Positions 58,597 through 62,754 of a stretch of DNA of 64,000 nucleotides are shown in pieces. A model generated the notes under the pieces. That model saw only the letters and a program-made list of their open reading frames with translations, did no database searches and was not told the origin of the DNA. The stretch's first letter is position 1; every line of letters starts with the position of its first letter. The translations under genes were made by a program, and so were the position numbers. Origin of the DNA: Gemmatimonadales bacterium (lineage in GTDB: Bacteria; Gemmatimonadota; Gemmatimonadetes; Gemmatimonadales; GWC2-71-9); assembly GCA_036500345.1 (NCBI GenBank), contig DASYCE010000015.1, forward strand, positions 124,001-188,000, written 5' to 3'.

Positions 58597-58670
58597 CGGG
58601 GTGTGGCGCAGTCCGGTAGCGCGTCCGCTTTGGGAGCGGAAGGTCCCGGGTTCAAATCCCGGCGCCCCGA
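58597..58670 (+). tRNA. tRNA-Pro (anticodon TGG)
   Basis: All stems close: acceptor CGGGGTG/CGCCCCG (one G-T wobble), D-stem GCGC/GCGC, anticodon stem TCCGC/GCGGA with loop TTTGGGA (anticodon TGG at 58631-58633), T-arm CCGGG-TTCAAAT-CCCGG and discriminator A. CCA is not encoded. A weak -10-like TAACTT lies at 58574-58579. The 3' part from 58626 is copied at 62706, so the gene is the attachment site of the adjoining element; the tRNA itself is intact. Confidence 0.97.
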
Positions 58671-58674
58671 TCAG
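58626..58674 (+). repeat. attL: 49-bp direct repeat in the tRNA-Pro 3' part
   Basis: Identical to 62706-62754 over 49 bases, from the anticodon stem to four bases past the tRNA end. The flanking bases differ (C/T before and G/C after). Confidence 0.9.
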
Positions 58675-58728
58675 GTAACATCAACAATAGCAATGCATTC
58701 AGGAAGAGGCGCTGATCGCCAGTTTGCT

Positions 58729-58755
58729 GTAGTCACAAGGTCGTAGTCACAGACA
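58729..58755 (+). repeat. Tandem GTAGTCACA repeats, left element end
   Basis: GTAGTCACA at 58729-58737 and GTAGTCACAGACA at 58743-58755, 14 bp apart. The same pair occurs in the same orientation near the right end. Confidence 0.8.
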
Positions 58756-58766
58756 TTGGAGGACAA

Positions 58767-58970
58767 ATGGCAGAGGTCATCGGCGACTCGGGCTGGGCGG
58801 CCGAACAGCGTCGCCGGCGCCTGGCCGAACGCCCAGAGCACGAGCGACTCGAAGCGCTCAACAACGTCAATCCGGCCGCAGTCTGTGCGATCGAGGGGCA
58901 CGAGTGGATCAGCCCGACCGAGTCGTCGGAGCCATTCTGCAAGCATTGCGGTGCGCCGCGGCCGGCTTAG
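58767..58970 (+). CDS. Small zinc-ribbon-like protein
   Basis: A 67-aa protein with a charged N-terminal helix (AAEQRRRRLAERPEH) and a C-terminal C-x4-H-x12-C-x2-C pattern (Cys40, His45, Cys58, Cys61). It could bind zinc. GGAGGA is the SD at 58758-58763. First gene of the element's plus-strand unit; no family recognised. Confidence 0.6.
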   Translation: MAEVIGDSGWAAEQRRRRLAERPEHERLEALNNVNPAAVCAIEGHEWISPTESSEPFCKHCGAPRPA

Positions 58971-58974
58971 GTCG

Positions 58975-59640
58975 ATGAGAGCAAGCTGGGAGAGGTTTGG
59001 CCCAGCCACGCTGATTAGCGTGGCGATCGTGGCCGCCGGCGCCCTTGCGGCGGGAGCCATCCTCGTCGTGGGCATTCTCACAAGACCGGAGTCATGGGCG
59101 CCGCTGGCGGAAGCGGCAGCAACGGTGCTGCTCGCCGGATTCGCCGGCGTCCAGTTGTGGCTAGATCACGTAAGAAAGAACGAGGAGCGGCTCGCAGCGG
59201 GGGTAGAGGCGCGCGCGATCGCTGTGCTCCTCCGACGCCAAATGTTCAGCTGGTCCGCACCTGGAATCGCGGGGCAGCATCTACGCGAATGGACCGGCCG
59301 TGCCACGCGACGCGGGATGCTCGGTCAGCATATGGATCGCGCCGAGGCCCGAATGACGAAACTCGCTGTGCTTGCCGGCAGTCTTGGAAGTAACCAGCGG
59401 ATGGCCATTGATGCGTTGTTCCAGTCGTTCCTCTCCGCGACCGCGACAATCGTTGAGGAAGGCGACGCATTTTCGGCGATCATGGAAATGCGAGCCGACC
59501 CTGGCGGCTCAGACGAATTATGGAGGGACGTTGCATGGGACATCCGGCAGTGTATCGGGGTACTGAACAACGCGATTATTGAGCCGAAGCCAGCGACCGC
59601 CGCAGATGTTCACAAGGGACGGGAAATGGGGCGCCAATGA
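58975..59640 (+). CDS. Two-TM element protein A, related to protein B
   Basis: A 221-aa protein with two TM helices (about residues 10-35 and 43-62) and a long helical cytoplasmic region. It aligns with the 62586 protein without gaps: residues 43-93 versus 42-92 share 19 of 51, residues 121-162 versus 119-160 share 14 of 42, and Glu105-Trp106 coincide in both. No annotated family recognised. It starts 4 bp after the zinc-ribbon gene; the next gene overlaps its stop (ATGA). Confidence 0.7.
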   Translation: MRASWERFGPATLISVAIVAAGALAAGAILVVGILTRPESWAPLAEAAATVLLAGFAGVQLWLDHVRKNEERLAAGVEARAIAVLLRRQMFSWSAPGIAGQHLREWTGRATRRGMLGQHMDRAEARMTKLAVLAGSLGSNQRMAIDALFQSFLSATATIVEEGDAFSAIMEMRADPGGSDELWRDVAWDIRQCIGVLNNAIIEPKPATAADVHKGREMGRQ

Positions 59641-60050
59641 AGATTCGATTCACGTTGTTAGCCGACGCCGCAAACATCTCCCAAGAAGGGAAGTTGAACA
59701 TCCTCGGCGAGTTCAACGCGATCCGGGCGACCGCTTACCCGATGATGTGGGGCGGATTTGTTTATGTCGCTTCGATGGAAGTCGGTGCAGCTGAGATCGG
59801 CGCGCAAGTGGATCTCGATCTCAGGCTCGTGGACGCAGACGGCGGACTTCTTGCTCCCCCACTGCCGGTCCATCTCACGATTTCCCAAGTCGGCAACGCC
59901 CCAGAGCTTGAAGGCGAGATGGAGAATCATCCGATCATTATCTCGATCAGCCAACTCACCATCCCCCAAGCGGGGAAATACTCGTTTGATCTCTGGCGAG
60001 AGGGGTCGCAGGTCGATACGTGCGGGTTTTACGCCGTTCTCGTAAGATGA
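59637..60050 (+). CDS. Small DUF6941-like protein
   Basis: A 137-aa beta-rich protein: KIRFTLLADAANISQEGKLNI and ILGEFNAIRATAYPMMWGGF are reminiscent of DUF6941 proteins. Function unknown. Overlaps protein A by 4 bp and the HicA-like gene by 4 bp, so it is part of one plus-strand unit. Confidence 0.65.
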   Translation: MKIRFTLLADAANISQEGKLNILGEFNAIRATAYPMMWGGFVYVASMEVGAAEIGAQVDLDLRLVDADGGLLAPPLPVHLTISQVGNAPELEGEMENHPIIISISQLTIPQAGKYSFDLWREGSQVDTCGFYAVLVR

Positions 60051-60304
60051 ATCACTCGAAGGCGTTATCGACGCTGAACGAATGGCTTTCGGGAAAGGCA
60101 ACGGGTGTGCGCTATTCCGAATTGGCGTCGACGCTTAGGGCGTTGGGCTGGCAGGAATCTGGCGGCGGCGGGTCGCACCGAATATGGTGGCACGAAGACT
60201 GCCAAGCTGTGATCCAGTCAGTAGATAAGGGCACTGGCCAGCTGCTTCCAGTGTATGTTAAGCGAGCGGCGAAGGTCGCTCTTGCTCAGGGGAGAGAGAA
60301 ATGA
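60047..60304 (+). CDS. HicA-like toxin (double-stranded-RNA-binding fold)
   Basis: An 85-aa protein. The GVRYSELASTLRALGWQESG helix-strand and GSHRIWWHEDC segment, with the family's conserved Gly-Ser-His (His44), match HicA mRNA interferases. About 20 extra residues precede the usual start. The HicB-like gene follows with a 4-bp overlap, in toxin-antitoxin order. Confidence 0.72.
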   Translation: MNHSKALSTLNEWLSGKATGVRYSELASTLRALGWQESGGGGSHRIWWHEDCQAVIQSVDKGTGQLLPVYVKRAAKVALAQGREK

Positions 60305-60627
60305 CCGAAACCGGAATTGATAGGGCGATCCTCTTTGCCGCTTGGACATTCCGTGGCGGCCCCGACCTCGACGGATCGGGCGCCTATGTGATCGAGATCG
60401 ACGAGCTCCCAGGCTTTTTCGTCGCGGCAGACACTGAGGATGAAGCAATTCACGAATTGACGCCTGCATTGGCCGCGCATCTTACGACGCTCGCGAGGCT
60501 CGGCAGAGATGTTCCCCGGCCGGCCCATCCCGGGTGGTTGCCGGAGGTTCGGCGGACGCCGACCCCGTCCAATGCTCGTCTCGAGGTCACGCCGCGAATT
60601 CCGGAGCTTCGACTCCAAACCGCCTGA
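60301..60627 (+). CDS. HicB-like antitoxin
   Basis: A 108-aa protein with the HicB partial RNase H fold: GAYVIEIDELPGFFVAADTEDEAIHELTPAL and LARLGRDVPRPAHPGW. The C-terminal 30 residues (RTPTPSNARLEVTPRIPELR) are not a clear ribbon-helix-helix or HTH, so DNA binding and autoregulation are uncertain. SD GGGGAGAG is present. Confidence 0.72.
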   Translation: MTETGIDRAILFAAWTFRGGPDLDGSGAYVIEIDELPGFFVAADTEDEAIHELTPALAAHLTTLARLGRDVPRPAHPGWLPEVRRTPTPSNARLEVTPRIPELRLQTA

Positions 60628-60638
60628 CGGCGAGCCAA

Positions 60639-60854
60639 CTACTCTTTTTTGAGCGATTCGACGGCAAGCTTCACAAGCGGTGTCACATATTCATCCGAAA
60701 TCTGCTGCATGGTAATACCACCTGGCCGCGCCGGCGCGTGAAGATCGATCTTGATTGTCTGCGATCCATCTGCATACAGTTCGACCGTAATTTCGACCTC
60801 CGTTCCGTCCGGTGCGCTGACGCGTCGCTTGGCACGTCGAACTGGGTCGCTCAT
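60639..60854 (-). CDS. Small 71-aa element protein of unknown function
   Basis: A 71-aa protein with SAPDGTEVEITVELYADGSQTIKI and QISDEYVTPLVKLAVESLKKE, a beta hairpin followed by a helix. No family recognised. It converges on the HicB-like gene with an 11-bp gap. ATG 60854 is chosen; a frame start at 60881 would add nine residues. Confidence 0.5.
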   Translation of the reverse strand: MSDPVRRAKRRVSAPDGTEVEITVELYADGSQTIKIDLHAPARPGGITMQQISDEYVTPLVKLAVESLKKE

Positions 60855-61006
60855 ACTGATCACCGGTCCTCTCAGCACCATAGATGCAAGTAAGATCGCT
60901 CAATGTAGCTCGCGCGACCAAACGAATCGCAGTCAGCGCGAGACTAACCGCGTCGAGAGTTATCGGCGTGTTCGGGACGGTTCGCGACGTTCCGCAGGCA
61001 GCGCTC

Positions 61007-61891
61007 CTATTTCGTCAGGTCGACCTTGATTCGATTGCCCTTGAACATGACGATCGAACCGTCCACAACATCCTGGGCAGTGATGTCCGCTCGCGAGAAC
61101 TTCGCGGCCAAATCCGCCGGGACATAAATCGTCAGGCGGTCCTCTGCCGTTGAGTTGAGCCATGAATACCGCCCGGCCATGTCCTTGTGCTTGACGACGA
61201 TCACGACTGCGAACCCGGCACCCGGAATGGAATCGGTGACCGCCGCGCCAAGTTTCTTGATGAGGGGGAAAGCAACTTCATTGATAGTTCCGGCGTTGCG
61301 CTCTGCTTCATTGGTCTGGTTGTTGTTGTAGGTGTATTTCGGTTCTGGCGCCATCACCCACAGGTAGCGCGTTCCGCGCCATGATTCGACAAGTGTGTCC
61401 CACGGCGAGCGGGCAATACCAACGGCAATGAGCGCGTGGCCGTGCTTTACGCCGCTTGGCGAATGATCCCCGGAGAGCCACGCTGCAGCGGAATCCAGGT
61501 CGCGGTCAGATGCGAGTTGAGCGTTTTCTCCCGCGTCGAAAAGGCGGTGGAATGCGCGCGCGGTATCCAAGACATTTACATCGATGAGGACGTCACTCAC
61601 TTCACCGCCTCCGCCAAGATGCACAATAACCCGCCCGGTCGACTTGTCGGTGCTGACGTCCTTGACTGAAAACGGCACGGGAATGAGCGGACTGCGCGTG
61701 TGCCGGGAAGAGGAATCGTCGACAGTGAGCGAGTCTCCGCGGAAACTTACCGAGCCGTGGTATTTCGAGTCCTTGAATCGAAGCGCCGAGAGCGGAACGA
61801 GGAGCGCTACATGCTGGCCCTTAGCAACGTGCGCGGACTGCGCTGACAGCGGCGCCGCGAGAAACAGCGCACCAGCAAGGAATAGCTTCAC
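61007..61891 (-). CDS. Secreted element protein of unknown function
   Basis: A 294-aa exported protein: signal peptide (KLFLAGALFLAAPLSAQ), then a mixed domain with SLTVDDSSSRHTRSPLIPV, a Gly-rich turn (VHLGGGGEVSDVLIDV), SWRGTRYLWVMAPEPKYTY and a final VDGSIVMFKGNRIKVDL. GTG 61891 has GGAGG seven bases upstream and overlaps the stop of protein B (GTGA). No family recognised; because it is exported while the others are cytoplasmic or membrane-bound, it may work in the periplasm. Confidence 0.6.
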   Translation of the reverse strand: MKLFLAGALFLAAPLSAQSAHVAKGQHVALLVPLSALRFKDSKYHGSVSFRGDSLTVDDSSSRHTRSPLIPVPFSVKDVSTDKSTGRVIVHLGGGGEVSDVLIDVNVLDTARAFHRLFDAGENAQLASDRDLDSAAAWLSGDHSPSGVKHGHALIAVGIARSPWDTLVESWRGTRYLWVMAPEPKYTYNNNQTNEAERNAGTINEVAFPLIKKLGAAVTDSIPGAGFAVVIVVKHKDMAGRYSWLNSTAEDRLTIYVPADLAAKFSRADITAQDVVDGSIVMFKGNRIKVDLTK

Positions 61892-62586
61892 TTCGATCCT
61901 CCAATGATGGGCCACGCGATCGGGATCCGAGTCGCACCAGTCATGAAAGCATCGACCCCGGCGGTAACGCGGTCCGCGGCCGCCATCTCGTCGGTCGCGA
62001 GGGCCACCTCGATAAGCTCACGATCTAAGAGCGAGATCAATTCGCTGAACGAATAGAACGTCTCGGCGATCGATCGAATCCCGTCGACGTGAGCGCGCTT
62101 CTCGATCTCCTGATTGACGAAGCCGGTGGCGCGAAGAAATAGGACCGTAGCTTGTCGCGCGGCCTCCCGACGTGGGCCGTGCAGGGATGTGGTCAAAGCA
62201 GAGATCTCATCCACCCGCTTCTCTGCCACGTCGACGGCGATGCCATACCGCTCGTGGTTTTCCAAGGCCCATTCAAGAATGTCGGTGACCGGCGCCTTTC
62301 GTTGCCGATGCCACGAGCGGATTTCGCGCGCGAGATTGTATGCGAGGAAACTGACGCGCTGTTCGGCCGCCTCTCGCTTGTCCGCCTTGCGTTGTTCCTC
62401 ATTCCTCCAGGTCAACCACGCGAAGATCGCAATTGCGACAGTCGCCGCGGATTCGGCAACGGCCTGGGCGGGCTGGGGCCAGCGGCCAATCGCAAACCCC
62501 AAGACAGCAGCACCGAAGATGAGGATCGGATTGATTCCCACTGTAGCGGTCTGGCCGGTAGATGCTCGTGGGTCAGCGACAGTCAT
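61888..62586 (-). CDS. Two-TM element protein B, related to protein A
   Basis: A 232-aa protein with two TM helices (about residues 18-35 and 42-60) and a helical region. See protein A (58975) for the shared segments; the two are distant paralogues on opposite strands. ATG 62586 has a GAGG just upstream; a GTG at 62592 is in frame. The last bases overlap the secreted protein gene, so it heads a minus-strand unit. Confidence 0.7.
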   Translation of the reverse strand: MTVADPRASTGQTATVGINPILIFGAAVLGFAIGRWPQPAQAVAESAATVAIAIFAWLTWRNEEQRKADKREAAEQRVSFLAYNLAREIRSWHRQRKAPVTDILEWALENHERYGIAVDVAEKRVDEISALTTSLHGPRREAARQATVLFLRATGFVNQEIEKRAHVDGIRSIAETFYSFSELISLLDRELIEVALATDEMAAADRVTAGVDAFMTGATRIPIAWPIIGGSK

Positions 62587-62603
62587 GTGCACCTCGATGC
62601 GGA

Positions 62604-62628
62604 GTAGTCACAGAAGTAGTCACAGACA
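62604..62628 (+). repeat. Tandem GTAGTCACA repeats, right element end
   Basis: GTAGTCACA at 62604-62612 and GTAGTCACAGACA at 62616-62628, 12 bp apart. Same orientation as the left pair; between this pair and attR (62706) there is no gene. Confidence 0.8.
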
Positions 62629-62705
62629 GACCGATTTTGCCACAGTGTGACGAGCGATCACCGGGCTACAACCCGCTTGCCAGCGCTTATTAGGACTCGC
62701 AATCT

Positions 62706-62754
62706 CGCTTTGGGAGCGGAAGGTCCCGGGTTCAAATCCCGGCGCCCCGATCAG
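62706..62754 (+). repeat. attR: 49-bp copy of the tRNA-Pro 3' part
   Basis: Exact copy of 58626-58674. It lacks the tRNA 5' half (acceptor, D-arm), so it is not a second tRNA gene. Confidence 0.9.

Follow-up and report, generated by a model that had tools for sequence, protein, structure and literature searches.

A solitary 4.1-kb island in the tRNA-Pro gene of a Gemmatimonadales bacterium has paired arm-like repeats at both ends and no recognisable integrase gene

How does a stretch of DNA come to occupy a tRNA gene, between what look like attachment (att) sites, when no integrase gene can be recognised within it? The question is raised by a 4.1-kb island at positions 58626-62754 of a 64,000-nucleotide stretch (the window; positions 124,001 to 188,000 of contig DASYCE010000015.1) from a Gemmatimonadales bacterium (assembly GCA_036500345.1). 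A first-pass annotation, made from the letters of the window, had described the island's ends as two identical 49-bp sequences 4,080 bp apart, the left one part of an intact tRNA-Pro and the right one a bare fragment. Our repeat search gave the same coordinates, with 100% identity between the copies, and ARAGORN and Rfam agreed on the tRNA, which ARAGORN found to be the only one in the window. The left copy, or core, spans the region from the anticodon stem to 4 bp beyond the 3′ end of the tRNA, and the right copy is without the tRNA 5′ half. Since the runner-up direct repeat in the 6.5-kb region has only 22 nt, at 73% identity, and since one copy of the exact 49-bp repeat lies inside a tRNA, the arrangement is not due to chance. 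The features of the boundaries are as follows:

58597-58670, plus strand: intact tRNA-Pro(TGG), the integration target, restored by the island's copy of its 3′ part (ARAGORN; Rfam RF00005, 68.2 bits)
58626-58674, plus strand: left 49-bp core (attL), identical to 62706-62754
62706-62754, plus strand: right 49-bp core (attR), a bare tRNA-Pro fragment, by repeat identity
62823-63626, minus strand: right-flank host gene, adjoining tRNA-Pro in island-free relatives (homologues beside the tRNA in G005, locus L047, and G012, locus L052)

The annotation had read this as the att structure of a site-specifically integrated element, and comparison with relatives bears it out. Eight relatives were compared, seven congeners (G001-G007) and a further member of the family (G012). 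In the stretch examined, each of the eight has the tRNA-Pro 3′ end only once, with no sign of a tandem tRNA duplication. Directly beside the tRNA, G005 and G012 carry the homologue of the right-flank gene (about 63 and 22 bp away, respectively), and in G005 it is followed by mscL, as in the window. In G006, mscL comes after the tRNA without a homologue of the right-flank gene, and in G001, G004 and G007 other genes intervene after the tRNA, with no intact second core. The single tRNA-Pro 3′ end and the gene order indicate that none of the eight relatives has the 4.1 kb at this site; it is a real insertion. In G001, 25 bp of the tRNA-Pro anticodon arm recur (92% identity; L046, 6154-6178) 2.2 kb downstream of the tRNA-Pro, beyond a transporter-like gene; this fragment is possibly an old, decayed attR.

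The island is also compositionally foreign. Its GC content is 59.7%, compared to 66.2 +/- 1.2% in equal-sized stretches of the remaining window (the lowest being 62.9%), and its tetranucleotide distance is 0.305, against a background maximum of 0.219. These data bear on the idea that a misassembly, or a tRNA duplicated locally in tandem, accounts for the second core. As the genome is a draft in 32 contigs (G000; 3.3 Mb, 96% complete), a misjoin is conceivable on sequence alone. However, the right copy is without the tRNA 5′ half, both flanks match the order in island-free relatives, the shift in composition falls exactly between the copies, and paired repeats, described below, flank the interior. 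We consider an artefact or duplication extremely improbable. Whether the whole 4.1 kb also sits at other tRNA genes was asked within the organism's own genome, where a search, other tRNAs included, yielded no second copy. The exact 49-bp core was absent from the genomes of other species that were searched.

What could have inserted it? No recombinase was found among the eight genes of the element by hmmscan against Pfam, PHROGs and NCBIfam, serine recombinases and transposases being covered by these family scans only. A whole-genome search with PF00589 gave no match on the island's contig, an integrase profile built locally and run against all six frames of the element produced only noise, with no integrase fragment, and no excisionase was recognisable in the island. 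The absence of an integrase between the repeats, noted at first pass, thus held in all three types of search. The five PF00589 matches elsewhere in the genome comprise two Xer-like proteins (contigs C26 and C16), a truncated one (C7) and two tRNA-associated integrases, at tRNA-Pro(CGG) on C11 and at tRNA-Ile on C8. The truncated, Xer-like integrase on C7 (L060, 8270-8875) is followed by an open reading frame (ORF) with a hydrophobic N-terminus, and is possibly the remnant of another element.

The ends of the island carry a second signature. The 9-bp motif GTAGTCACA occurs exactly four times in the 64 kb, compared to 0.02 occurrences expected. The copies form two pairs, one a short way in from either end of the island and both oriented as the tRNA:

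58729-58751, plus strand: left GTAGTCACA pair with a 5-nt gap, putative integrase arm sites
62604-62624, plus strand: right GTAGTCACA pair with a 3-nt gap, putative integrase arm sites

The assignment of both pairs rests on these four copies and on a layout shared with integrase-bearing elements of the genus. One of these occupies 16 kb in the tRNA-Pro(CGG) of C11 (L005, 1656-17612), with a 47-bp core from the same part of the tRNA. In the congener G009, the tRNA used by our island is occupied by another element, one that has an integrase. There, tRNA-Pro(TGG) is intact and a gene for a tyrosine integrase (L045, 9880-11037) lies 97 bp downstream of it, and the core recurs as a bare 47-bp copy on another contig (L044). 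The tRNA-Pro site is a hotspot. Both elements (on C11, and on C13/C4 of G009) have a gene for a tyrosine integrase next to attL, and their repeats are GGTGTCC in place of GTAGTCACA; no gene of the island occurs in either. GGTGTCC repeats also accompany the integrase at tRNA-Ile on C8. In orientation, however, the GGTGTCC repeats of the two tRNA-Pro elements match the island's GTAGTCACA repeats, and their distances from the core are similar (left 74, 86 and 107 bp and right 125 and 113 bp in C11; left 73 and 85 bp and right 124 and 112 bp in G009; left 55 and 69 bp and right 102 and 90 bp in the island). The matching layout suggests that both ends of the island have the anatomy of tyrosine-integrase att sites, with a different repeat motif. 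By position, orientation and linkage, the GTAGTCACA pairs are probably integrase arm sites, and both att sites look complete, with core and arms. As a side observation, the C11 element encodes an Hsp70-like protein, an AAA ATPase with IetA-like matches and an AAA_21 ATPase, cargo that is possibly defensive.

An alternative is that the GTAGTCACA pairs are operators, through which a protein of the island such as its HicB-like antitoxin would control both of its gene groups. HicB-type antitoxins often regulate their own operon, and both gene groups have a pair some 16-18 bp ahead of their first start codon (58767 on the left; the likely ATG at 62586 on the right). Yet the pairs point the same way with respect to the att cores, and hence opposite ways with respect to the two gene groups; GGTGTCC shows the same layout in the integrase-bearing elements; and the motif recurs beside tRNAs in unrelated genomes. 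We find it improbable that the pairs are operators instead of arm sites, though the two roles could coexist.

The recurrence beside tRNAs emerged when about 85,000 species genomes were scanned for GTAGTCACA pairs, which gave 31 loci. Three of these have the pair within 200 bp of a tRNA, where 0.19 would be expected for random positions in these loci (P 0.0006). Many of the 31 are simple repeats, so that the linkage between motif and integrase rests on the tRNA-associated cases. In L099, tRNA-Pro(TGG) is followed by three GTAGTCACA repeats, a small helix-turn-helix (HTH) gene and a tyrosine integrase; in L112, tRNA-Leu is followed by the repeats, a gene whose start resembles an excisionase-type HTH and a divergent integrase-like ORF. 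A GTAGTCACA pair was also present in 21 viral contigs; in two (L080, L083) it lies about 200 bp past the 3′ end of an integrase gene, and in two (L064, L066) beside tRNA-Lys. A Porticoccaceae metagenome-assembled genome (G477; L131, 3180-5280) has tRNA-Leu followed by a pair oriented like those in the window, then, 1.9 kb off, an imperfect 36-bp second copy (92%), with one large ORF and no integrase between. This locus, possibly a decayed island of similar kind, was considered as a second integrase-less island with GTAGTCACA and set aside as evidence, its second core being imperfect and its right end without repeats. A literature search on the repeat motif and integrases turned up nothing relevant.

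Could a helper integrase reside in the same cell? None of the five PF00589 matches of the genome has GTAGTCACA repeats, and no other GTAGTCACA pair was found in this genome with three mismatches allowed at 3-nt spacing. As no integrase or pair matching GTAGTCACA turned up in the host genome or in the sampled order or phylum, the island is probably stranded and, judging from these genomes, immobile at present.

Eight plausible genes lie inside the island. They form two groups that converge: five genes read rightward (58767-60627) and three read leftward (60639-62592):

58767-58970, plus strand: 67-aa ORF, possibly a small zinc-ribbon protein; no family match
58975-59640, plus strand: 221-aa protein with a hydrophobic N-terminus, paralogue of 61888-62592 (28% identity, E 1e-8); no family
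59637-60050, plus strand: DUF6941 protein (PF22091, E 2.4e-21)
60047-60304, plus strand: HicA-like toxin (PF07927, E 4e-6; PHROG 353)
60301-60627, plus strand: HicB-like antitoxin (PF15919, E 3e-6; PHROG 497)
60639-60881, minus strand: 80-aa ORF; no family match
61007-61915, minus strand: 302-aa protein with a signal-peptide-like N-terminus; distant homologues on the organism's own contig C31 and in G009; no family
61888-62592, minus strand: 234-aa protein with a hydrophobic N-terminus, paralogue of 58975-59640 (28% identity, E 1e-8)

Coding density is 91%, the ORFs are intact and no pseudogenes were found in the island. The distant homologues of the 302-aa protein in the same genome and in G009 suggest that some of the cargo, at least, comes from the local gene pool. 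The homologue on C31 adjoins a Pycsar-like pair (PycC cyclase and PycTIR effector; L124, 9391-11066), itself about 0.5 kb from tRNA-Met. Searches for relatives of the cargo gave nothing in plasmids for three island proteins, nothing in phages for two and no useful match in viral contigs; the 234-aa protein had no relative in any of these three sets. A weak match to it in G115 overlaps an integrase ORF on the opposite strand and is probably spurious. Structure prediction reached a mean pLDDT of 35 for the 302-aa protein and 47 for the 234-aa protein, and the models were not usable.

Nor does the gene content point to a known mobile lifestyle. PADLOC gave no anti-phage defence match among the proteins of the element, the PHROGs matches were to toxin-antitoxin families or at chance level, with no phage signature, and no relaxase, coupling protein or VirB4 was among the family matches of the eight genes (Pfam, PHROGs, NCBIfam). 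Phage satellites are recognised by an integrase of their own or by phage-interference, replication or packaging genes, and none of these was found in the island.

Is the island, then, only what is left of a larger element? The first-pass annotation had offered a trans-mobilised element or a shrunken remnant, and this still appears to be the right pair of choices. Under the second, a larger GTAGTCACA-type element in tRNA-Pro would have lost its integrase, excisionase and transfer genes by deletion, leaving ends that have merely not yet decayed and no mobile future. Deletion is the accepted origin of cis-mobilizable elements (CIMEs; PMC7563491, PMC5704250), the genome and the sampled order and phylum offer no helper, and the integrase-bearing relatives have their integrase just inside the left repeats, where the island has its 67-aa ORF. 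However, no pseudogene or integrase fragment is left among intact ORFs at this coding density, the 49-bp cores are identical and the four 9-bp repeats exact, even though only the left core is under tRNA selection. Paired arm-like repeats at both ends, together with 91% coding and no pseudogenes, lead us to favour preserved att sites over a decayed stump, and we regard a dead remnant as rather unlikely.

We propose, with good though not full confidence, that this is a solitary, non-autonomous CIME-like island that depends on an outside integrase, and that may either have lost its own by deletion or have arrived with none. From the structure and the empty site, a tyrosine integrase would have recombined a circular form with the anticodon-stem-to-3′-end core of tRNA-Pro(TGG); the core copy brought in by the island would have restored the tRNA, the displaced 3′ fragment becoming attR. 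The island keeps the 49-bp core and, as putative arm sites, a GTAGTCACA pair at each end, and it would move only if another element supplied an integrase with GTAGTCACA arm specificity, acting in trans or by inserting beside the island at one of its att sites. The cargo consists of the two convergent gene groups, whose HicAB-like pair may help to retain the island.

Several observations weigh against this proposal. The island is known here from sequence, in integrated form alone. No further GTAGTCACA pair, and hence no helper, was found in 288 genomes of the order or 395 of the phylum. Taken over all 31 loci, the pairs are not significantly more often near an integrase than expected (3 vs. 2.2), and the repeats of L099 and L112 are inverted relative to the tRNA, compared to those of the island. 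Lastly, the island could encode an integrase of a kind that the libraries do not recognise.

The kind of element proposed is already known; what we add is the evidence for arm sites and the question of helper specificity. Classical CIMEs, described mainly in streptococci, keep attL and attR, have cargo but no integration or transfer genes, and measure 1.2-13 kb (PMC7563491, PMC5704250). Our island resembles them in its attL and attR, its cargo, its location at the 3′ end of a gene, its size and the lack of detectable integration or transfer genes. In contrast, it stands alone, with no integrative and conjugative element (ICE) or integrative and mobilizable element (IME) in tandem, and no parent element for it was found in the sampled order and phylum. 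The streptococcal survey states that its own method was unable to find single CIMEs (PMC7563491). The integrase-less ssrA islands of Dehalococcoides, suggested to be cis-mobilizable, are arrayed in tandem with islands that carry an integrase and share their site (PMC3146451). They share with our island an RNA-gene hotspot and the lack of an integration module, whereas ours is single and the integrase-bearing elements of its genome lie at other tRNAs. Miniature inverted-repeat transposable elements (MITEs) and clusters of attC sites lacking integron-integrases (CALINs) are moved by the recombinase of other elements (PMC11389934). They too keep their ends without a recombinase gene, such that movement would need a helper, but they use other chemistry and sites (transposase ends or attC), compared to a tyrosine-integrase att in a tRNA here. 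A broader reading, in which the island belongs to an integrase-free satellite class with full att sites (core and GTAGTCACA arms) that spreads between genomes solely through the integrases of others, as a tRNA-island counterpart of MITEs, strikes us as quite unlikely.

These results place an element of a known type in a group of bacteria that has been little studied, and illustrate that nothing more than a tRNA core, paired arm-like repeats and an empty site is needed to recognise a solitary CIME-like island. Integrase-less islands of this type are probably under-counted. GTAGTCACA provides a short motif with which to seek the helper integrase, and could help to tell dead remnants from regular hitch-hikers.

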